From: Streptomyces sp. NBC_01231
GTDB lineage: Bacteria; Actinomycetota; Actinomycetes; Streptomycetales; Streptomycetaceae
Direction of reading: 5' to 3'
Assembly: GCA_035999765.1 (NCBI GenBank)
Contig: CP108521.1
Span: forward strand, 2,108,001 to 2,172,000
DNA length: 64,000 nt
This document shows, one piece after another, positions 635 through 53,699 of this stretch (its first letter is position 1; every line of letters starts with the position of its first letter). The translations under genes were made by a program, and so were the position numbers. A model generated the notes under the pieces. It did not search any database. It was not told the DNA's origin and saw only the letters and a list, made by a program, of their open reading frames with translations.

Positions 635-2302
635 ATGTCCAGCACTCTCTCCCGTGTCCGCGCCGCCTACGCCCGCGTCGAGGCCGTGGACCGGCCCGAG
701 ATCTGGATCGACCTCCGCCCGCGGGCTCAGGTCGAGGCGGAGGCCCGGAGGATCGACGAGCTTGTCGCCTCCGGCGTTCGACTTCCGCTCGCCGGGCGCC
801 TGTTCGCCGTCAAGGGGAACATCGACGTGGCCGGCCTGCCCACGACCGCGGGCTGCCCGTCGTACGCCTACCGGCCCGACGCCGACGCGCCGGTCGTCGC
901 CCGCCTCCGCGCGGCGGGCGCCGTCGTCCTGGGCACCACGAACCTGGACCAGTTCGCGACCGGGCTGGTCGGCACCCGCTCCCCGCACGGCGCCGTACGG
1001 AGCGCGCACGACCCGGCCAGGATCAGCGGCGGCTCCAGCTCCGGCTCGGCCGTCGCGGTGGCCCTCGGCATCGTCGACTTCGCGCTGGGCACCGACACCG
1101 CGGGCTCGGGCCGCGTCCCGGCCGCCTTCAACGGCATCGTCGGCCTCAAGCCCACCCGGGGCCTGGTCCCGATCACCGGCGTGGTCCCGGCCTGCGCCTC
1201 CCTGGACTGTGTGACGGTCTTCGCCCGCACGCTCCCCGAGGCCGAGCAGGCCCTGGCCCACATGGCGTCCCCGCCGGCCCGCGATCTCCCCGCGCTCCCC
1301 CAGCGGGCCCCGGGCCCCTGGCGCGTCGCCGTCCCGGCACGGGAACAGCTTCTCGAGCTGGACGAGGGCTGGGCGGAGGCCTACGAGGCGGCCGTGGGCC
1401 AGCTCGTCACCGCTGGCGCCACGGTGCGGGAGATCGACCTCGGCCCCTTCACGGAGGCCGCGGCGATGCTGTACGAGGGCGCGTTCGTCGCCGAGCGCTA
1501 CACAGCCGTAGGGAGCTTTGTCGACAAAGCGCTGGCCGCGAACGACCCGTCTCTCGACGCCACCGTCGCCGGCATCATCACCCGGGCCCGGGACATCCCG
1601 GCCCACCAGCTGTTCGCCGACACCGATCGCCTGGCCGTCCTGCGCACCCGGGCGCTGGCCGCGCTCGCCGACGCGGACGCCCTGCTGCTGCCCACCGCAC
1701 CCGGCCACCCCACCCTCGCCGAGGTGGCCGCCGATCCCCTGGGCTCCAACGCCCGCCTGGGCCGCTTCACCAACTCCACCAACCTCTTCGACCTGGCCGC
1801 GGTGGCCGTCCCGGCGGGCGAGGCGAACGGCCTCCCCTTCGGCGTCATGCTGATCGGCCCGGCGTTCACGGACGAACGCCTGGCCACGATCGCCCGGCTG
1901 CTCCAGCCGCAGACACAGCTCGCGGTGGTGGGGGCACACCTGTCGGGCCAGCCCCTCAACCCGCAGCTCCTGTCCCTGGGCGCCCGTCTGGACCGCACGA
2001 CCACCACGGCCCCGTTCTACCGCCTGCACGCGTTGGCAACGACCCCGCCCAAGCCCGGCCTGGTGCACGTGGGCGAGGGCGGCGCGGAGATCGAGACGGA
2101 GGTCTGGCGCCTCCCGGCAGAGGGCCTCGGCCGCCTACTGGCCGCACTCCCCCGCCCGATGACCCTGGGCAGCGTGCACCTGGCGGACGGCACCCACGTG
2201 CCGGGCTTCCTCTGCGAACCAGGGGCGCTCGCCACCGCGGAGGACATCACCCAGTACGGCGGCTGGCGTTCCTACCTGGACCGTCATCCCACGGACGAGT
2301 AG
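635..2302 (+). CDS. atzF: Allophanate hydrolase
   Basis: A 555-residue amidase-signature enzyme that splits allophanate into ammonia and CO2, the second step after urea carboxylase. The N-terminal two thirds has the amidase Ser-cisSer-Lys machinery: a lysine in FAVKGNID near residue 60 and the glycine/serine-rich SGGSSSGSAVA signature near residue 130. The last 120 residues form the small C-terminal domain typical of AtzF/DUR1,2 proteins. The ATG is chosen because an AGAGG ribosome site lies 7 bases upstream, immediately after the carboxylase stop; the open frame upstream of it is only an overlap with that gene. The 3' end overlaps the end of the convergent helicase gene by 19 bases. Confidence 0.93.
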   Translation: MSSTLSRVRAAYARVEAVDRPEIWIDLRPRAQVEAEARRIDELVASGVRLPLAGRLFAVKGNIDVAGLPTTAGCPSYAYRPDADAPVVARLRAAGAVVLGTTNLDQFATGLVGTRSPHGAVRSAHDPARISGGSSSGSAVAVALGIVDFALGTDTAGSGRVPAAFNGIVGLKPTRGLVPITGVVPACASLDCVTVFARTLPEAEQALAHMASPPARDLPALPQRAPGPWRVAVPAREQLLELDEGWAEAYEAAVGQLVTAGATVREIDLGPFTEAAAMLYEGAFVAERYTAVGSFVDKALAANDPSLDATVAGIITRARDIPAHQLFADTDRLAVLRTRALAALADADALLLPTAPGHPTLAEVAADPLGSNARLGRFTNSTNLFDLAAVAVPAGEANGLPFGVMLIGPAFTDERLATIARLLQPQTQLAVVGAHLSGQPLNPQLLSLGARLDRTTTTAPFYRLHALATTPPKPGLVHVGEGGAEIETEVWRLPAEGLGRLLAALPRPMTLGSVHLADGTHVPGFLCEPGALATAEDITQYGGWRSYLDRHPTDE

Positions 2303-5091
2303 GCGACCACTCCCCGCAGCAGCCCGTCGACCGCCTTACGCGCGTTCTTCGCCACCGTCGAACCCCCGGAGGGCGCCGCGGCCGAGATCTGCCCCAGCAC
2401 GTCGATCACCTGCTTGCACCACCGCACAAAGTCCCCCGCGGGCATCTCCGCCTCACGCAGCACCTCGTCGAGGCCCTTCCCGGACGACCACATGTACGCG
2501 GCCCAGGCGAACCCGAGGTCGGGCTCGCGCTGCCCCACGCCCTCGCTCTGGGTGATCCGGAACTCCTCCTCCATGGCGTCCAGGCGCCCCCAGATCCGCA
2601 CCATCTCGCTGAGCGCGGCCTTGGCCTTGCCCGACGGCAGCTTCGGCGCCATCGCGTCGTCGCCGGCGCGGGACTCGTACACCAACGCGGAGACACACGC
2701 GGCGAGTTCGGCCGGGCCGAGGCCCTCCCACACGCCCGCGCGCAGGCATTCGCTGGACAGCAGGTCGAGCTCGCCGTACAGCCGGGCGAGCCGCTTGCCG
2801 TGCTCGGTGACCTCGTCACCGCGCAGGTAGTCCAGCTCCGTCAGCAGCGCGACGATGCGGTCAAACGTACGGGCGATGGTGTTCGTACGGCCCTCGATGC
2901 GCCGCTCCAGCTGTGAGGTGTCCCGCAGCAGCCGGTGGTAGCGCTCGGCCCAACGGGCGTGGTCCTCACGGTCGCTGCAGCCGTGGCAGGGGTGCGCCCG
3001 GATGTCGGTGCGCAGCCGGGCGATCTGCCGGTCGTCGGCGGCCTGGGCGCGCTTCTTGCGGGCCCGCTCCGGCGGGATGTGCCCGGCCTTGGTGCGCAGC
3101 GCCGAGGCGAGGTCCCGACGGGACTGCGGTGAGCGCGGGTTGAAGGACTTCGGGATCCGCATCCGCTCCAGCGGTTCGACGGGCACCGGGAAGTCCATCG
3201 ACGCGAGCCGCTTGACCTGCCGCTCGGCGGTCAGCACCAGCGGGCGCGGACCGTCGTGGTGCTCGAAACCGCGGTGGCCGTTGGACCGTCCGGCCGACAG
3301 CCCCGGGTCAAGGACCAGCGCGAGGCCGGCGTACTTGCCGGTCGGGACATGGATGACGTCACCCGGCTTGAGCTTCTCCAGCGCGACGGCGGCCTCGGCG
3401 CGCCGCTGGCTGGCGCCCTGCTTGGCCAGCTCGGTCTCGCGGTCCTTGAGTTCGCGGCGCAGTCGCGCGTACTCCTCGAAGTCGCCGAGGTGGCAGGTCA
3501 TGGAGTCCTTGTAGCCCTCCAGCCCCTCCTCGTTGCGCTGCACCTGCCGGGAGATCCCGACGACCGACTTGTCGGCCTGGAACTGCGCGAAGGACGTCTC
3601 CAGGAGCTCGCGCGAACGGTGCCGGCCGAACTGTTCGACCAGGTTGACCGCCATGTTGTACGACGGCTTGAAGCTGGAGCGCAGCGGATAGGTGCGGGTG
3701 CCGGCCAGTCCCGCCAGGTGGTCGGGGCTCGACCCGCGCTGCCACAGCACCACCGCGTGGCCCTCGATGTCGATGCCGCGTCGGCCCGCACGCCCGGTCA
3801 GCTGGGTGTACTCACCCGGTGTGATGTCGGCGTGCTGCTCGCCGTTCCACTTGACGAGCTTCTCCAACACCACCGACCGCGCGGGCATGTTGATGCCCAG
3901 CGCGAGCGTCTCGGTCGCGAACACGGCCTTCACCAGGCCGCGTACGAACAGTTCCTCGACGACTTCCTTGAACGTCGGCAGCATGCCCGCATGGTGGGCC
4001 GCGATACCGCGCTCCAGGCCTTCCAGCCACTCGTAGTACCCGAGGACGTGCAGGTCCTCGTTGGGGATGGAGGCCGTACGCTCCTCGACCAGGGCACGCA
4101 CCTTCTCCCGCGCCTCGTCGTCGTTGAGCCGAAGGCCCGCGTACAGGCACTGCTGTACGGCCGCCTCGCAGGCGGCGCGGCTGAAGATGAACGTGATGGC
4201 GGGCAGCAGGCCCTCGGCGTCCAGCCGTTCGATCACCTCGGGCCGGCTCGGTGTCCAGATCCGTGAGCGCTGTCGGCGCTCGCGCTCCCGGTCGGCCTCG
4301 CGCATGGCGCGGCCCCGCCTGCGGTCCTGGTAGGACGGGCGCTGCGCCTCCATGCGGGCCAGCCGCGTCAGGTCGGGGTTGACGGCCTTCTTCTGGCCCT
4401 CGCCCTCCTCGAACAGGTCGTACATCCGCCGCCCGGCGAGCACGTGCTGGAACAGCGGCACGGGCCGGTGTTCGGAGACGATCACCTCGGTGTCGCCGCG
4501 GACCGTGTCGAGCCAGTCGCCGAACTCCTCGGCGTTCGACACGGTGGCCGACAGCGAGACGAGGGTGACCGACTCAGGAAGGTGGATGATCACTTCCTCC
4601 CATACGGCGCCACGGAAGCGGTCGGAGAGGTAGTGCACCTCGTCCATCACCACGTAGCCGAGGCCGAGCAGGGTCTGCGAGCCCGCGTACAGCATGTTCC
4701 GCAGCACCTCGGTGGTCATCACGACCACCGGGGCGTCGGAGTTGACGCTGTTGTCGCCGGTGAGCAGGCCCACCTTGTCCGCGCCGTACCGGCGGCAGAG
4801 GTCGGCGTACTTCTGGTTCGACAGTGCCTTGATGGGCGTCGTGTAGAAGCACTTCTTGCCCTGCTGGAGGGCGAGGTGGACGGCGAACTCGCCGACGATC
4901 GTCTTGCCGGATCCGGTGGGCGCGGCCACCAGGACGCCCTTCCCCGATTCGAGCGCCTGACAGGCCTCGATCTGGAAGGGGTCGAGGCCGAAGTCGTACA
5001 TCTCGCGGAAGTCGGCGAGCGCGGTGGCCTGCTCGACAGCGCGCCTACGTGCTGCCGCGTACCGCTCGGCCGGTGAGAGGTCCTCTGTCAT
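2284..5091 (-). CDS. helY: DEVH-box superfamily 2 RNA/DNA helicase (HelY/Ski2/Mtr4-like)
   Basis: A 935-residue Ski2-like helicase. Seen: Walker A APTGSGKT at residues 57-64, the DEVH box at 150-153, motif III SAT, motif VI QLTGRAGRRG, and a DSHCT-type C-terminal region. Family members unwind structured RNA or act in nucleic-acid quality control; the in vivo substrate in actinobacteria is not settled. I start it at the ATG at 5091 (MTEDLSPAERY), not at the TTG at 5124, because the TTG is part of a near-perfect RecA-NDp (PafBC-type) promoter at 5102-5124. That promoter would put transcription start within a few bases of the ATG, giving an almost leaderless mRNA. The end overlaps the convergent allophanate hydrolase gene by 19 bases. 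Confidence 0.92.
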   Translation of the reverse strand: MTEDLSPAERYAAARRRAVEQATALADFREMYDFGLDPFQIEACQALESGKGVLVAAPTGSGKTIVGEFAVHLALQQGKKCFYTTPIKALSNQKYADLCRRYGADKVGLLTGDNSVNSDAPVVVMTTEVLRNMLYAGSQTLLGLGYVVMDEVHYLSDRFRGAVWEEVIIHLPESVTLVSLSATVSNAEEFGDWLDTVRGDTEVIVSEHRPVPLFQHVLAGRRMYDLFEEGEGQKKAVNPDLTRLARMEAQRPSYQDRRRGRAMREADRERERRQRSRIWTPSRPEVIERLDAEGLLPAITFIFSRAACEAAVQQCLYAGLRLNDDEAREKVRALVEERTASIPNEDLHVLGYYEWLEGLERGIAAHHAGMLPTFKEVVEELFVRGLVKAVFATETLALGINMPARSVVLEKLVKWNGEQHADITPGEYTQLTGRAGRRGIDIEGHAVVLWQRGSSPDHLAGLAGTRTYPLRSSFKPSYNMAVNLVEQFGRHRSRELLETSFAQFQADKSVVGISRQVQRNEEGLEGYKDSMTCHLGDFEEYARLRRELKDRETELAKQGASQRRAEAAVALEKLKPGDVIHVPTGKYAGLALVLDPGLSAGRSNGHRGFEHHDGPRPLVLTAERQVKRLASMDFPVPVEPLERMRIPKSFNPRSPQSRRDLASALRTKAGHIPPERARKKRAQAADDRQIARLRTDIRAHPCHGCSDREDHARWAERYHRLLRDTSQLERRIEGRTNTIARTFDRIVALLTELDYLRGDEVTEHGKRLARLYGELDLLSSECLRAGVWEGLGPAELAACVSALVYESRAGDDAMAPKLPSGKAKAALSEMVRIWGRLDAMEEEFRITQSEGVGQREPDLGFAWAAYMWSSGKGLDEVLREAEMPAGDFVRWCKQVIDVLGQISAAAPSGGSTVAKNARKAVDGLLRGVVAYSSVG

Positions 5092-5101
5092 CGTGCTTTC
5101 G

Positions 5102-5124
5102 AGCGTACCGGGCCCCACTGACAA
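5102..5124 (-). promoter_or_regulatory. RecA-NDp / PafBC-type promoter of the helicase gene
   Basis: On the minus strand the sequence reads TTGTCAGTG, then 8 bases, then TACGCT. This is an exact match to the mycobacterial DNA-damage promoter TTGTCRGTG-N8-TAnnnT, recognised by RNA polymerase with the WYL activators PafB and PafC. The -10-like hexamer ends 10 bases before the helicase ATG at 5091. PafB and PafC are encoded about 3 kb away in this window. The match is seen directly; its function is inferred. Confidence 0.75.
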
Positions 5125-5273
5125 CGGACGATCATTATCCGGATCCGGATCCGGCCGCCCACCGCGTGACGGCGACGTAGGACCTCAACGACAACGCCGT
5201 GGGCATCCACAACGGCCCTTCGTTCTCCCCGGCCGTGCTGGTCCCACCGGCCGTGGCGGTCCCGCGGTCCGGC

Positions 5274-6218
5274 TCAGGTGACGTCGTCGTAGCCGTTGAC
5301 CACCGAGGTGCCCTCGGCGCTCCCGCTCGCCTGGTGGGGCAGGGCCTTCGAGGCGGACACGGATTCGACCTCGCCGACGCCCTCCGGCGTGAGATCGAGA
5401 GGCGATGCCTCGTCGTCGTCCAGTTCTGCGTCGGGATCGGCGCGCCTGCGACGCCTGTCGTTCAGCAGCGCGATACCGACCGCGATGAAGTAGAGGATCA
5501 CGATCGGACCGGCGAGCGCGATCATGCCGAAGGGGTCGGTGGTCGGGGTCGCCACGGCGCCGAAGACGAAGACGCCCATGACCACACCACGCCACCATCC
5601 GGCCATCCGGCGGCCGGTCACCATGCCGCTGAAATTGAGCATGACGAGCAGCAGGGGCAGCTCGAAGGCGGCACCGAAGACGAGGATCATCCTGACGATG
5701 AAGTCCAGGATCTTGTCCATCGGGAGGATGTTCGCCGAGCCGTCGGGCGTGATCCCGAGGAGCACGCGCATGCTGATCGGCAGGACGCTGTAGGCCAGCG
5801 CGGCTCCACCCAGGAAGAGCGGCACGGCCGCGGCCACGAACCAGTACGTGTACTTGCGCTCATGCTTGTGCAGCCCCGGCGCGACGAACGCCCAGAGCTG
5901 GTAGAGCCAGACCGGACTCGAGATGATGATGCCCGCCATGAAGCACACCTTCACCGTGGTGGTGAAGGGGGACAGCAGGTCGGTGTACGCGATGACCGCG
6001 CAGGTACCGCCCGTGGACTCGCCCAGTCCGCTGGTACAACGCGGAACGGGGTCCATCAGGAAGTTCATCAGCTCCTGGCTGTAGAAGGCGACCACCACGG
6101 ACACGACCGTGATCGCCAACATGCCCTTCGCGAGCCGGTTGCGGAGCTCACGAAGGTGATCCGCGAGGGGCATCCGCCCCTCGGGGTCCTTCTCCTTCTT
6201 GCGGGCAGGCTTCAGCAA
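5274..6218 (-). CDS. tatC: Twin-arginine translocase subunit TatC
   Basis: A 314-residue polytopic membrane protein, the signal-peptide receptor of the Tat pathway for folded proteins. Seen: the conserved cytoplasmic N-terminal MPLADHLRELRNRL, multiple hydrophobic segments consistent with six membrane spans, and an acidic cytoplasmic tail extended beyond the usual family length. The start is a TTG with a GGGAACGTGGG purine stretch just upstream; an internal ATG in front of the PLADH motif would lose 15 basic residues. It lies 47 bases downstream of tatA on the same strand, as expected for an actinobacterial tatA-tatC unit. PafBC followed by tatAC is also the mycobacterial arrangement. Confidence 0.95.
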   Translation of the reverse strand: MLKPARKKEKDPEGRMPLADHLRELRNRLAKGMLAITVVSVVVAFYSQELMNFLMDPVPRCTSGLGESTGGTCAVIAYTDLLSPFTTTVKVCFMAGIIISSPVWLYQLWAFVAPGLHKHERKYTYWFVAAAVPLFLGGAALAYSVLPISMRVLLGITPDGSANILPMDKILDFIVRMILVFGAAFELPLLLVMLNFSGMVTGRRMAGWWRGVVMGVFVFGAVATPTTDPFGMIALAGPIVILYFIAVGIALLNDRRRRRADPDAELDDDEASPLDLTPEGVGEVESVSASKALPHQASGSAEGTSVVNGYDDVT

Positions 6219-7514: not shown

Positions 7515-8540
7515 TCACGTGTGCCTGTCGTACTGCCCGTCATGCGTCCCGTGCGCCTCGACCCCGTCGTACGCCGCCAACGCCCCGCGGGCCGCCTCGC
7601 GGGCGCTGTCGGCGAGGTCGCGCGGCGACACGATCCGGCCATCACGCCCGAGGCGCAGCGCCAGCCGCCTGAGGGACGCCGGATCCGGGGTCCGCAGGGT
7701 GATACGCAGCCCACCGTCCGCAAGCTCATCCGCACTGTCGTGCGGGTAGTACTCGGCGACCCAGCGCCCGCCCGGGCCGACCTCGACGACGACCTCCGGG
7801 TCCTCTGCGGCGGGCTGCACCAGCGCCTCGGACAGGTCCCGCAGCTCGATCTCCGGCGGTGCGGCCGGCTCGTCGAGGATCTTGATCTCGGCGACCCGGT
7901 CGAGCCGGAAGGTGCGGCGCGCCTCGGAACGCCGGCACCAGGCCTCCACATAGGTGTGCCCGACGCTGACCAGCCGGATCGGGTCGATCTCGCGTTCGGT
8001 GACCTCGTCACGGGCGGGCGAGTAGTAGCGGATCCACAGGCGGCGCCGCTCGGAGATCGCCCGGTCGACGTCCGCGAAGACCCCGCCCTCGGACTCGAAG
8101 GTGACGGACAGCCGGGAGCTGGCGCCTGCCTGCTCACCGGCCGCGGCCTCCACCTTGGCGGTCGCACGCAGCAGCGCCTGCCGGTCGCTCTCCCGCAGGC
8201 CCGGCAGCGTGGACACCGCGCGGGCGGCGACCAGCAGCGCGGTCGCCTCGTCGGCGGCGAGCCTCAGCGGCTCGGCCGCCTCCGCGCCGAGGGCGGCGGG
8301 GTTGTGCCACCAGATCCGCTCACCGTCGGTGTCGATGTCGAGCAGGTCACCGCCCCGGAAACTGGTGCCGCACATGGGCAGGATGTCGAGGTCGGAGACC
8401 AGTTCGTCCTCGGTGATCCCGAAGGCACGGGCCACGTCCTCGACCCGGGCGCCGGGCCGCTCCCTCAGATACGTCACCAGGGACAGCATCCGCCGGGTCT
8501 GATCGATGGCGTTGCCCGGCCTGGCCGGTTTTCCCACCAC
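7515..8540 (-). CDS. pafC: WYL-domain transcriptional activator PafC
   Basis: A 341-residue protein with an N-terminal winged-helix region (ARVEDVARAFGITEDELVSDL) and a WYL domain whose signature appears as TYVEAWC, followed by RTFRLDRV and a C-terminal WCX extension. With PafB it forms the heterodimer that in mycobacteria activates most DNA-damage genes independently of LexA, by helping RNA polymerase recognise RecA-NDp promoters; the WYL domains are thought to sense a damage-linked signal. The GTG start has a GAGGGG ribosome site 10 bases upstream and lies only 14 bases after pafB, so the two are co-transcribed. Candidate target promoters are marked in this window at 5102, 25368 and 51451. 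Confidence 0.92.
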   Translation of the reverse strand: MVGKPARPGNAIDQTRRMLSLVTYLRERPGARVEDVARAFGITEDELVSDLDILPMCGTSFRGGDLLDIDTDGERIWWHNPAALGAEAAEPLRLAADEATALLVAARAVSTLPGLRESDRQALLRATAKVEAAAGEQAGASSRLSVTFESEGGVFADVDRAISERRRLWIRYYSPARDEVTEREIDPIRLVSVGHTYVEAWCRRSEARRTFRLDRVAEIKILDEPAAPPEIELRDLSEALVQPAAEDPEVVVEVGPGGRWVAEYYPHDSADELADGGLRITLRTPDPASLRRLALRLGRDGRIVSPRDLADSAREAARGALAAYDGVEAHGTHDGQYDRHT

Positions 8541-8554
8541 GTTCTTACGTCCCC

Positions 8555-9508
8555 TCAGCCCTTGGCCACGGCGCGCAGCCGGTCCACCACATCGGCCCGC
8601 AGCTCGGCGGGCTCCAGGACCAGCACGTCCGGCCCGAACTCCACCAGCCAGGCGTCCAGGCCATGACCGTACGGGATCTCCAACTCGTCCCAGCCGTCCC
8701 CCAGTTCCCGTACGGAGGTGGCCCTCGCCCGCAGCGGGTACCCCGAGCCGGTGCGCAGCCGGATCAGCGCGGAGCGTTCGGCGTTCTCCCCCGCCCAGCT
8801 CGCGACGGTCTCGCGCACGGTGACGACGTCCGGCACCGGGGCCGTGAAGCGCGCACCGCGTGAGCGCACCCGACCGGTGATCCGCGACAGCCTGAAGACC
8901 CGCTCGGCTCCCCGGTCACGGTCGAATCCGGCCAGGTACCAGTGGCCGCGCCAGCACTCCAGCGCCCACGGCTCGACATGGCGGGGTTCGGGGTGGGCCG
9001 CGTTGGCCTTGCGGTAGTCGAACACGACCGGGCGGCGGTCGCGGCAGGCGAGCATCAACGGTTCGAACGCGGCCTCGTGCACCGGGATCCGGGGCTCCAG
9101 CGCGCTGTGCGCCTCGTACGGGTCGACGTCCTCCGGAAGGCCCGCCGCGCGCAGCTTCTGCAGGGCGCCGCTGGCCGCGCCGGCCAGCCGGGCCTGCTGC
9201 CACACCTTGGCGGCCAGGCCCAGGGCCGCGGCCTCCTCGGCGTCGAGGGTGATGGGCGGGAGACGGTTGCTGTCGCGACGGGCCAGGTAGCCGACCTCGC
9301 CGTCGAGGTTCTCGACCGTTTCGATGACCAGGCCGAGTTCGCGCAGATCGTCCTTGTCGCGCTCGAACATCCGGTTGAAGGAGTCGTCGGACCCGGCTTC
9401 GAGGTAGGCCTCGATGGACTCACGCAGCTCGCGCTTGCTGAGCGGCCGCCGGGTCCCGAGCAGACACAGCGCAAGGTTCATCAGCCGCTCGGCCTTGGCA
9501 ATGGCCAT
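8555..9508 (-). CDS. pafB: WYL-domain transcriptional activator PafB
   Basis: A 317-residue WYL protein, paralogue and partner of the PafC encoded directly downstream. Seen: an N-terminal winged helix-turn-helix (SKRELRESIEAYLEAGSDDSFNRMFERDKDDLRELG) and a canonical WYL block, GHWYLAGFDRDRGAERVFRLSRI, in the second half. The ATG at 9508 (MAIAKAERL) is preferred over an upstream alternative because AGGGAGG lies upstream of it and the 27 extra residues look like untranslated sequence. The pafBC pair separates the Pup ligase region from tatAC, as in mycobacteria, where pafA, pafB and pafC were named for their shared location. Confidence 0.92.
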   Translation of the reverse strand: MAIAKAERLMNLALCLLGTRRPLSKRELRESIEAYLEAGSDDSFNRMFERDKDDLRELGLVIETVENLDGEVGYLARRDSNRLPPITLDAEEAAALGLAAKVWQQARLAGAASGALQKLRAAGLPEDVDPYEAHSALEPRIPVHEAAFEPLMLACRDRRPVVFDYRKANAAHPEPRHVEPWALECWRGHWYLAGFDRDRGAERVFRLSRITGRVRSRGARFTAPVPDVVTVRETVASWAGENAERSALIRLRTGSGYPLRARATSVRELGDGWDELEIPYGHGLDAWLVEFGPDVLVLEPAELRADVVDRLRAVAKG

Positions 9509-9581
9509 CGACGCCCTTCGCCTCCCTATGGTGCTTACGGACGTTGACCGTACCGCCCCGCAGTAGCGCGGCAAAAGCCGA

Positions 9582-25367: not shown

Positions 25368-25390
25368 CTGTCAGTGGCGGGCCCTATGGT
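25368..25390 (+). promoter_or_regulatory. RecA-NDp / PafBC-type promoter of the RecB-like nuclease gene
   Basis: Reads CTGTCAGTG, 8 bases, TATGGT. This matches TTGTCRGTG-N8-TAnnnT at every position except the first, which is weakly conserved. The -10-like box ends 8 bases before the ATG at 25399, so the transcript would start at or next to the initiation codon (leaderless); no ribosome site precedes that ATG, which fits. Confidence 0.7.
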
Positions 25391-50571: not shown

Positions 50572-51555
50572 ATGGAGCAGAGGCATCTCGGCCGCACCGG
50601 CCTGCGTGTGTCCCGGATCGGGCTCGGCACCCTGACCTGGGGGCGGGACACCGATGAACATGACGCCGCGGACCTCTTGAAGACGTTCTGGGAAGCGGGC
50701 GGGAGTCTTGTCGACACGGCGGACGTGTACGGCGACGGGGAGGCCGAGTATCTGCTCGGGCGCCTCATAGAAGGCCTGGTGCCTCGTCGGGACCTGGTCA
50801 TCTCCACGAAGGCCGGCAGTGTGCCGGATCCCGATCGTCGCTTCGACGGTTCGCGCGGGCATCTGCTCTCCGCGCTGGACGCCTCGCTGGCCCGGCTCGG
50901 CACGGACTACGTCGATGTGTGGCACATCCACGCCTTCGATCCGGACACCCCGCTGGAGGAGAGCCTCCAGGCGCTGGATCTGGCGGTGAGCAGTGGACGG
51001 GCCCGGTATGCCGGGGTGTCGAACTTCTGTGGCTGGCAGCTCGCCAAGGCGGCGACGTGGCAGATTTCCGCGCCGGGCACCCGGACCCGGCTGGCGAGCA
51101 CGCAGCTGGAGTACTCGCTGCTCCAGCGCGGTGTCGAGCGGGAGGTGCTGCCGGCCGCGCTGGACCTGGGGATCGGCATGCTTCCCTCGTCGCCGCTCGG
51201 GCGCGGGGTGCTCACGGGCAAGTACCGGTACTCGACGCCGACCGACTCGCGGGGCGCCTCGGAGCATCTGGCGCCGTTCGTCGCGCCGTATCTCGACGAC
51301 ACGGCGACGCGGATCGTGGACGCCGTGACGACGGCGGCGGACGGGCTCGCTGTGACGCCGCTCCAGGTGGCCCTCGCCTGGGTCCGGGACCGGCCCGGGG
51401 TGGCCGCGCCGATCGTGGGGGCGCGCAACGCGCAGCAGCTCACGGCGGCGTTGTCAGTGGAGGCCCTTAGTCTTCCTGACGAGATCTGCCGGGCGCTCGA
51501 CGACGTGTCGGCGCCCGTGCACCGCTATCCCGATCACGACTGGAGCACGCTGTGA
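50572..51555 (+). CDS. Aldo/keto reductase
   Basis: A 327-residue NADPH-dependent TIM-barrel reductase. Seen: GLRVSRIGLGTLTWGRDTDEHDA, VDTADVYGDGEAE (catalytic Asp and Tyr), ISTKAG (Lys), DVWHIHAFDP (His), and the C-terminal cofactor motif PIVGARNAQQL. Substrate unknown. The ATG lacks a clear ribosome site. Its stop TGA overlaps the GTG start of the next gene, so the two are coupled. Codons 294-300 are unusually rare (TTG TCA GTG GAG GCC CTT AGT) because they contain a RecA-NDp-type promoter for that gene. Confidence 0.92.
   Translation: MEQRHLGRTGLRVSRIGLGTLTWGRDTDEHDAADLLKTFWEAGGSLVDTADVYGDGEAEYLLGRLIEGLVPRRDLVISTKAGSVPDPDRRFDGSRGHLLSALDASLARLGTDYVDVWHIHAFDPDTPLEESLQALDLAVSSGRARYAGVSNFCGWQLAKAATWQISAPGTRTRLASTQLEYSLLQRGVEREVLPAALDLGIGMLPSSPLGRGVLTGKYRYSTPTDSRGASEHLAPFVAPYLDDTATRIVDAVTTAADGLAVTPLQVALAWVRDRPGVAAPIVGARNAQQLTAALSVEALSLPDEICRALDDVSAPVHRYPDHDWSTL
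51451..51473 (+). promoter_or_regulatory. RecA-NDp / PafBC-type promoter inside the aldo/keto reductase gene
   Basis: TTGTCAGTG, 8 bases, TAGTCT: exact match to TTGTCRGTG-N8-TAnnnT. It lies within the coding sequence of the reductase, 78 bases before the RecD2-like GTG start, and is written in rare Streptomyces codons, suggesting selection for the DNA motif over codon bias. Confidence 0.72.
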
Positions 51556-53699
51556 GCACGGAGCCGGAGCCCGCTGAGGACCTGGAGGCCACCGAGCCGG
51601 GTGCCGCCGCGACCGCGCAGGAGGGTGTCGATGCCAAGGCACCGGATGCCGCGGACGCTGGTGAGGACGCGGGGAAGGTGTCCGAGGCCGCCGCCGAGCT
51701 CGCCGCGCAGCGGCTGGAGCGGGAGCGGATCGCGAAGCGGAAGGCCGAGAAGGCGCCGATCGCCGCTGGGACCAAGCTCAGCGGCACGGCCGCCGATCTG
51801 CTCGCGGCCGTGCGGGCCGTGGAGAGTGGTGAGAAGCCCGCGGCGGCCGTCGTCGAGGAGCCCGCGCCTCGAAGGTCCGCGCCGGAGCCGAAGCCGCAGC
51901 CCGTCTCGGCCGAGGTGGCTGCCGTCCCGGCGCCGGACCTCGTCGAGGCCGTACGGGGTGTCCTGGTCGAGGGAGGTGCGCCGGACGGGCTCGCGGGGCA
52001 GGTCGCCGCGGTGCTCGGCGCGGGCGCCGGTGACCGGCTGCGGGCGGACCCCTGGCAGCTGTTGCGGGTGGGCGGGGTGCGGCCCGAACAGGCCGACGGG
52101 TTCGCGCGGGCGCTCCTGGGCGCGGAGTGCGGGCCGGACGACGAGCGGCGTGGGCGGGCGGTCACGGTATGGCTGCTGGAGCAGGCCGCCCTGGCGGGGC
52201 ACACGGTCCTGGAGATGCCGGCCCTTGTCGCGGCGCTCTCCCAGCGGGGCGTGCCGGATCCGGATGCGGCCGTCCAGGAGACCCTCGCCGAGGGTGAGGC
52301 CCTGGCCTTCCAGGACGCCCTGGAGGAGCCCGTCGCGCCCGCCCAGGGGGACGACGACGAGGACGAGGAAGAGGAGCGGCCGGTCCGTGTCCTCGTGGGG
52401 CTGGAGCGGTACGCCCTCGCGGAGGAGAGCCTCGCCGACGGTCTGGCCCGGCTGATCAACTCCGTGCCGAAGGAGGACGGTTCGGACGCGGAGTGGGAGC
52501 GGATCGCGGACTCGGCCGGCGGGTCCGCCGCAGAGCTGATCCGCGCGGTCGCCCGCCACGGTCTCGTGCTGCACACCGGTGGCGAGGCCTCACTGGCCGA
52601 ACCCGCGGCGTTGCTGCGCGGCGCCGGGGAGCTCGGGCTGCGGGCCTGGGCCGCCGCCCACGGTCCGCTGGGGCGCGATCGGTTCGCGGCCCTGCCGGGC
52701 GTGACGGAGGAGCGGCGGGAGTCGTCCGTCGACGGCGGCTCCCCCGGTGTCGTCACCGTCGCCGGGCTGCTGTCCGGTGCCGAGGGGCCGGGACGGGACG
52801 CCGAGGGCACGTTCGACCTCGACCTGCTCGTCGTCCTGGACGCTCCTCAGCTGGACGTCGAGGCGGCGGCCCTGCTGTCGGAGTCGCTGCCCGACGGAGC
52901 CCGGCTGGTGCTGGCGGGGGACCCCGCGGTGCTGTCGTCCGTCGGTCCCGGGCGGGTGTTCGCGGATCTGCTGGCCGCCCGGGTCTGTCCCCAGGTCGCC
53001 TCGCGGCGGCCGGATCCCGGGCCGCTGGGCGAGCTGGTGTCCGGCGTCGGGATCGGCGAGCTGAACCAGGTCGAGGCCCCTGGCAAGGAGGTCGTGATCG
53101 TGCCGGTGCGAGACGCGGGAGAGGCAGTGCACCGGACCGTGCAGCTCGTCGCGGACTCGGTGCCGCGGGCCATCGGCGTGCCCGCCGAGGACACCCAGGT
53201 GATCACGCCGGGCCACGGCGGTGCGGCGGGCACCCGCGCGCTGAACACGGTTCTCAAGGAGCGGCTCAACCCGGGCCCCGGCCGCTTCGGTGGTTTCGAT
53301 CCCGGTGACCGGATCGCCTACTCCCCCACGCCGGGGCGTACGTTGCCGGGCCACGTGGTCAAGGCCGACACCGAAGGGCTGCACCTGTCGTGCAGCGGCG
53401 AGGCAGTCGTCGTGCCGAAGGAGCGGGTGGAGCAGGATCTGCGGCACGGATGGGCACTGACCGCGCATCAGGCCGTGGGCGGCCGGTGGCCCGCGGTGGT
53501 CGTGGTGCTGCCCGGTGACGCGGCGCAGGCGCTCAGCCGACCGTGGGTCTACACGGCGTTCGGGCGGGCGGAGCGGCATCTGTCCGTGGTGCACGGCGCG
53601 GAGCAGGCTCTGCCAAGGGCGGTCGCCGAGGTCCTCGCCAAGCCCCGTACGACTCGGCTGCCCGTTCTGCTGGCGCCCCAGGTGCCGGTGTCCGGCTGA
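51552..53699 (+). CDS. RecD2-like helix-hairpin-helix protein lacking helicase motifs
   Basis: A 715-residue protein. After a disordered Ala/Glu-rich region (1-125) it follows the RecD2 plan: HhH region (DLVEAVRGVLVEGGAPDGLAGQVAAVLG, ADPWQLLRVGGVRPEQADGFARALLG), a helicase-like middle, a C-terminal SH3-like segment (FDPGDRIAYSPTPGRTLPGHVV) and motif VI-like LTAHQAVGGRWPAVVVVLPGD. There is no Walker A GxxGxGKT/S, and the Walker B position reads LLVVLDAPQLD instead of DEAxM, so ATP-driven unwinding is unlikely. It may be a DNA-binding regulator derived from RecD2. Translation is coupled to the aldo/keto reductase; a damage-type promoter lies inside that gene. Confidence 0.85.
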   Translation: MSTEPEPAEDLEATEPGAAATAQEGVDAKAPDAADAGEDAGKVSEAAAELAAQRLERERIAKRKAEKAPIAAGTKLSGTAADLLAAVRAVESGEKPAAAVVEEPAPRRSAPEPKPQPVSAEVAAVPAPDLVEAVRGVLVEGGAPDGLAGQVAAVLGAGAGDRLRADPWQLLRVGGVRPEQADGFARALLGAECGPDDERRGRAVTVWLLEQAALAGHTVLEMPALVAALSQRGVPDPDAAVQETLAEGEALAFQDALEEPVAPAQGDDDEDEEEERPVRVLVGLERYALAEESLADGLARLINSVPKEDGSDAEWERIADSAGGSAAELIRAVARHGLVLHTGGEASLAEPAALLRGAGELGLRAWAAAHGPLGRDRFAALPGVTEERRESSVDGGSPGVVTVAGLLSGAEGPGRDAEGTFDLDLLVVLDAPQLDVEAAALLSESLPDGARLVLAGDPAVLSSVGPGRVFADLLAARVCPQVASRRPDPGPLGELVSGVGIGELNQVEAPGKEVVIVPVRDAGEAVHRTVQLVADSVPRAIGVPAEDTQVITPGHGGAAGTRALNTVLKERLNPGPGRFGGFDPGDRIAYSPTPGRTLPGHVVKADTEGLHLSCSGEAVVVPKERVEQDLRHGWALTAHQAVGGRWPAVVVVLPGDAAQALSRPWVYTAFGRAERHLSVVHGAEQALPRAVAEVLAKPRTTRLPVLLAPQVPVSG

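Follow-up and report, generated by a model that had tools for sequence, protein, structure and literature searches.

The helY gene of Streptomyces sp. NBC_01231 is preceded by a PafBC-type (RecA-NDp) box and −10 element in exact consensus form, with a WblC-type element in register just upstream of the box. We consider it fairly probable that these elements form a real sigma-HrdB PafBC promoter joined to a WblC element, so that two activators would serve one near-leaderless helY start. On the minus strand, TTGTCAGTG is followed by the spacer GGGCCCGG, the −10 element TACGCT and the ten bases CGAAAGCACG, after which the ATG occupies positions 5091-5089 (Table 1). The printed PafBC/RecA-NDp consensus is tTGTCRgtg-8 nt-TannnT, in which TGTCR and TA...T are capitalized (PMC5656591), and the element at 5124-5102 matches it with the right orientation and spacing, as the original prediction had stated. 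That prediction had also placed the end of the motif 10 nt ahead of the helY ATG, with which the coordinates agree. Given this 10-nt gap, the leader should be about 3-5 nt long, which would make the helY mRNA near-leaderless by position; at the WblC-activated promoters of S. coelicolor, transcription mostly begins 7-8 bp past the −10 element (PMC7157823). The TTG at 5124, which had already been disfavored as the helY start, is rejected because the promoter element covers it and because conservation favors the ATG: all 110 Streptomyces helY genes compared have it, with TANNNT ending 10 nt (100 genes) or 9 nt (10 genes) upstream.

Table 1. Features at the helY promoter, neighboring genes and further motif matches in the window.
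Feature	Position	Strand	Basis or remark
helY, Ski2/Mtr4-like DExH helicase, 935 aa, ATG at 5091	2284..5091	−	DEAD, DSHCT and MTR4-like stalk domains; start conserved
Predicted transcription start, 6-8 nt past −10	5094..5096	−	inferred
−10 element TACGCT	5102..5107	−	TANNNT 9 or 10 nt 5' of ATG in 110/110 Streptomyces
8-nt spacer GGGCCCGG, box to −10	5108..5115	−	read from sequence
PafBC-type −26 box TTGTCAGTG	5116..5124	−	sequence; core TGTCR in register in 104/110 Streptomyces
Weak −35 CGTCCG	5125..5130	−	3 bp after GATAAT, 17 bp before −10
WblC-type element GATAAT, 5/6 to GAAAWY	5134..5139	−	in register; 9 bp upstream of PafBC box
tatC, upstream neighbor of helY	5274..6218	−	TIGR00945 above cutoff; 182-nt gap to helY ATG
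pafC	7515..8540	−	HTH_PafC, WYL, WCX
pafB	8555..9508	−	WYL, WCX in 8558-9511; adjoins pafC
Third site CTGTCAGTG-N8-TATGGT, one mismatch	25368..25390	+	8 nt before ATG of PD-(D/E)XK nuclease gene
Second perfect site TTGTCAGTG-N8-TAGTCT	51451..51473	+	upstream of RecD2-like helicase gene 51552-53699

Domain matches identify both pafB and pafC in the same genome (the pafB start codon at 9508 was picked by eye, and its open frame extends to 9589). These genes had been described as lying next to helY; they are close by, but tatC and a small ORF, by eye tatA, intervene.

Two matches to the strict pattern TTGTCRGTG-N8-TASNNT are found in the window (the whole 64-kb stretch of DNA analyzed), at 5102-5124 on the minus strand and at 51451-51473 on the plus strand, and none in 100 dinucleotide shuffles of it. 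When one mismatch and TANNNT were allowed, three matches were found, a number that the shuffles never reached (mean 0.06). The three spacing-correct matches reported originally therefore hold only with one mismatch, because the third has C at position 1; the strict pattern gives two. The accompanying statement that all three precede nucleic-acid-processing genes is fair, these being helY and the genes for a PD-(D/E)XK nuclease and a RecD2-like helicase (a match below the NCBIfam cutoff for RecD2). The site at 51451-51473 falls within the terminal part of an ORF (50572-51555), by eye aldo/keto reductase-like, and a near-exact form of it is present in 83 of 121 Streptomyces genomes, to which coding constraint may contribute.

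Beyond the window, the 11.34-Mb genome contains 27 strict matches and none of the reversed pattern. Across 121 Streptomyces genomes, 2562 strict sites were counted versus 9 reversed, with at least one strict site in every genome, and at least one strict match was found in 135 of 196 genomes of the class, including all 19 Streptomyces among them. Because strict sites outnumber reversed ones so clearly, both in the genome itself and across the genus, the helY match is not a chance one. Together with the empty shuffles and the conservation at helY described below, these counts lead us to reject a chance resemblance, in favor of which nothing was found and whose probability we regard as negligible. 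Two genomes of one other family (G248 and G266) carry 58 and 115 strict matches; many of the G248 matches listed are an identical TTGTCGGTGCCCGCCCGTAGGGT, suggesting a dispersed repeat.

Twelve of the 27 sites precede genes for nucleic-acid proteins or their operons, as judged from domain or family matches. These genes encode uracil-DNA glycosylase (ung), RarA/MgsA (rarA), RuvC, UvrA, alkylguanine methyltransferase (ogt), UvrB, RecA, a PhoH-like protein, ribosomal protein S6 (presumably from the gene before ssb), a DinG-like helicase, the RecD2-like helicase and HelY. Genes for other kinds of protein follow further sites, namely two MFS transporters, an FAD oxidoreductase, a HAD hydrolase, a DUF4253 protein, a SWIM-domain protein, a glyoxalase-like protein, a YjbR protein and a CoA-transferase (start 131 nt off), and six sites have no clear gene or domain after them. 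By eye, a start codon stands 6-7 nt past the −10 element in 12 of the 27 sites, one of which opens 58 codons only; the 10 nt at helY is slightly longer. Among sites of this genome with a single mismatch and an intact −10 element, 17 deviate at position 1 and 7 by A to G at position 6; deviations at positions 8 and 9 are rare, with one each by eye. A further 32 TTGTCAGTG sites, counted by eye, have one mismatch in the TANNNT 8 nt on: CA, GA or AA replaces TA in 25 and TT or TC in 7, and the last T is always kept. As the reversed pattern gives only 3 in all, these sites may represent a second use of the 9-mer.

We compared the helY promoters of 110 of the 121 Streptomyces genomes drawn, counting related genomes separately. 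Left out were G079 (no strong match listed), G050 (N-terminal part missing), G106 (two pieces, with a perfect site), G035, G039, G047, G071, G087, G105, G109 and G120; outside the 110, the G087 box is TTGTCAGCG, with one mismatch. At helY, 104 of the 110 promoters retain the core TGTCR-N11-TANNNT, versus 0 of 19,800 slid positions. The complete TTGTCRGTG is found in 41 and absent from 69, and it separates by identity of HelY to the query: 41 of 46 promoters at 91% identity or above have the full box, versus 0 of 64 below 91% (30 promoters with 93-100% identity were all entered as 95). Of these 64, 43 have C at position 1 and 53 have A at position 8, a change that probably weakens the site, since mismatches at positions 8 and 9 are rare in the strain's own genome. 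The consensus capitals thus extend across nearly the whole genus, whereas the full consensus characterizes one group.

In actinomycetes of other families, represented by 51 helY upstream regions from the 196 class genomes (in two of which no start was found), TANNNT lies 6-7 nt before the helY start in 42 (versus 0.00085 per control position), whereas a TGTC box is in register in 3. The close-set −10 element is therefore widespread and the PafBC-type box is chiefly found in Streptomyces; its placement suggests that transcription starts at or adjoining the helY start codon in much of the class. At helY homologues, the motif recurs as a core in nearly all Streptomyces compared, but neither as the full box throughout Streptomyces nor, in most cases, beyond the genus. 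The same comparison bears on the idea that helY is mainly read through from the pafBC-tatAC genes, with the 5124-5102 element playing a minor part. The genes are collinear and the gap between tatC and helY is short, but a −10 element keeps a nearly fixed distance from the ATG in all 110 Streptomyces and, among the 51 other actinomycetes, stands 6-7 nt ahead of the start in 42, which makes this improbable.

The helY gene of S. coelicolor is, we assume, the one tagged SCO1631. It is among the WblC/WhiB7-activated genes of that species, with 5.1-fold more helY RNA in the tetracycline-treated wild type than in the tetracycline-treated wblC mutant; HelY is enriched with ribosomes under tetracycline, and its loss is reported to cause only a marginal, twofold change in tetracycline sensitivity (PMC7157823). 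The WblC promoter is described there as GAAAWY, 3 bp, a weak −35, 16-19 bp and TANNNT (PMC7157823). An in-register counterpart, GATAAT-GAT-CGTCCG-17 bp-TACGCT, is present at helY in our strain; its 17 bp falls within the WblC spacer range, and its −35 CGTCCG fits TKGM at 2 of 4 positions. When WblC elements were scored across the 110 helY promoters, 48 reached at least 5/6, versus 1.3% of slid positions, and 96 reached at least 4/6, versus about 11%; in 62 the best match is only 3-4/6. The promoters also share an A-rich footprint at −46/−45 from the ATG, and their −49 to −41 region is 75% A+T, versus 24% in the upstream flank. WblC/WhiB7, which the original prediction missed, is the sole experimentally supported regulator of Streptomyces helY that we found.

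This regulation raises the alternative that helY is a WblC/WhiB7 gene only, in which the TGTC box would aid polymerase or WblC contacts in the spacer and its perfect form in this group of species would be neutral or weak, giving no damage response. Such an account agrees with WblC control as the only regulation found to have been shown experimentally, with the ribosome association of HelY and the slight effect of its loss in S. coelicolor (PMC7157823), and with the prevalence of A at position 8 in the less similar HelY group (53 of 64). The corresponding YTGTCRGAG forms are also much rarer in the 121 genomes than the full consensus (295 versus 2562 sites), at least 30 of the 295 being helY itself and 50 coming from G047, G050 and G105. 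Yet these forms exceed their reversed control (295 versus 27), the consensus capitals TGTCR and TA...T are retained in 104 of 110 promoters, and the complete 9-mer with exact spacing is present in 41 of the 46 genomes whose HelY is at least 91% identical; we therefore judge a WblC-only helY to be unlikely. In G047 and G050, many of the variant sites listed are one repeated CTGTCAGAG/TTGTCAGAG sequence ending TACCCT. The 41 genomes with a perfect helY box contain a mean of 28.6 strict sites (3.06 per Mb) and the 67 with an imperfect TGTC box at helY a mean of 17.3 (2.09 per Mb), in statistics that ignore kinship.

Reading the helY promoter as a damage promoter is plausible, and better supported than the original prediction could show, but incomplete, as the gene is known in S. 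coelicolor above all as a WblC target. The originally proposed status of helY as a DNA-damage gene draws on an exact consensus beyond chance, the company of repair genes and the core kept in 104 of 110 promoters, but the full box is restricted to 41 of 110 and is absent from all 64 below 91% identity. According to PMC11804915, PafBC activated by single-stranded DNA inserts between promoter DNA and sigma domain 4, with the −26 motif bound by PafB and sigma by PafC, and a cooperation of WblC with HrdB upstream of the −35 has been proposed (PMC7157823). In the combined promoter that we favor, accumulating single-stranded DNA would bring PafB to TTGTCAGTG, around −26, and PafC to region 4 of the main sigma factor, so that polymerase starts from TACGCT and the helY mRNA has a leader only some 3-5 nt long. 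TACGCT would also serve the WblC/WhiB7 promoter and so carry the antibiotic-stress input known for S. coelicolor helY. Since the PafBC box sits between the WblC −35 and the common −10 element, and both activators would have to engage the same sigma factor, their inputs would be exclusive and the two would take turns at one helY start point. We infer, then, the use of one −10 by both factors in this strain, the damage response and the mutual exclusion; the DNA itself shows the elements, how they are spaced and conserved, and the start codon. Another reader of P1-type promoters, such as ClgR, might act on the box instead, and PMC5656591 refers to earlier work on recognition of the mycobacterial P1 promoter region by ClgR; later papers, however, assign the motif to PafBC, with binding in vivo seen by cross-linking and immunoprecipitation, and we hold a ClgR-type reader to be very improbable.

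Composite promoters of the same design were sought at other genes. The S. coelicolor PhoH-like gene SCO2532 is also WblC-activated (PMC7157823), and phoH was taken as its counterpart by family name. Of the phoH promoters read in 50 of the 121 genomes, 28 (counted by eye) combine a WblC score of at least 5/6 with a TGTC-containing site in register, and the strict PafBC box occurs in 15 (two rows, G017 and G032, lack a proper start, and the G032 site is strict). For an MFS gene, the promoters of the best 30 of the 118 genomes with a match were compared; 13 have a strict box and an ATG 6-7 nt past the −10 element, and 9 of these 13 (counted by eye) also score at least 5/6 for the WblC element; many matches beyond the best 30 are distant paralogues, and G017 and G059 lack a proper start. 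Across the 121 genomes, GAAA stands in register upstream of 48 PafBC sites, versus 27 when shifted by 4 nt. Of the 48, 19 are phoH and 10 the MFS gene, and 6 resemble the strain's own uvrA site by sequence only. The genome-wide enrichment of the composite is thus weak, with 29 of 48 sites coming from phoH and the MFS gene, and at 48 versus 27 a general class of WblC and PafBC composites is not established. In the strain itself, 4 of the 27 sites score at least 5/6 for the WblC element (background 2.45%, binomial P 0.004), at a threshold chosen after the list had been seen. About 20 of the 121 Streptomyces genomes encode a PhoH-like protein interrupted near residue 243 by about 1 kb of sequence, most often within an open frame of at least 700 codons (for example G036:C1:1847106-1849190), and this insert is probably an intein.

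A more specific reading spans helY, phoH and the MFS gene. At all three, the PafBC box would be nested in the WblC spacer, with exclusive inputs from DNA damage and translation stress at one −10 element; the helY mRNA would be nearly leaderless, and the box would have been perfected in one Streptomyces group on an older promoter, either the close-set −10 alone or the −10 with the WblC element. We advance this tentatively, as a possibility somewhat short of probable.

RecA-NDp promoters were already known in Streptomyces: PMC5087735 reports the macrodomain gene SCO6735 of S. coelicolor as UV-inducible, 5-fold, notes the RecA-NDp promoter in several other species as well, and cites work of 2002 on RecA-NDp at S. 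rimosus recA. A 2022 study of DNA damage in S. venezuelae reported that an initial search suggested non-conservation there of the mycobacterial (M. smegmatis) PafBC motif, and left open whether Streptomyces has a RecA/LexA-independent response (PMC9380542). Our motif counts speak against non-conservation for the genus; S. venezuelae was not identified among the genomes compared. The name helY does not occur in PMC5656591, nor helY or Rv2092c in the main text of the mitomycin paper on M. tuberculosis, and among the largely open-access papers searched, titles and abstract openings revealed neither a link between helY and PafBC nor a composite of PafBC and WblC. The 2562 versus 9 sites in 121 genomes argue that the motif is common in Streptomyces, and they yield a testable gene list. 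The overlap with the promoter of a second stress regulator at helY and phoH makes competing sigma adaptors directly testable, and one helY start may answer two alarms, DNA damage and antibiotic stress.

The helY promoter resembles the PafBC-dependent (RecA-NDp, P1) promoters of mycobacteria and of Streptomyces recA in sequence, spacing, orientation and regulon neighbors, and in the presence of pafB and pafC. It differs from them in lying before the gene for a DExH RNA helicase, which was not found named in the PafBC papers searched, in having a −10 in common with a WblC-type element, and in carrying a perfect box in only part of the genus. SCO6735 provides a like case of a RecA-NDp promoter within Streptomyces, although the passages of PMC5087735 that describe it mention no WblC element. 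With the WblC/WhiB7-activated promoters reported for S. coelicolor, the helY promoter shares an A-rich element, here a partial match to GAAAWY, a weak −35, a spacer within 16-19 bp and TANNNT; unlike those described there, it holds a complete PafBC box within the spacer in this strain (PMC7157823). The proposed mechanism also parallels the sigma adaptation of AfsR/SARP, in which an activator sits between promoter DNA and region 4 of sigma-HrdB (PMC10936776), whereas the helY case involves another protein family, another box and other genes.
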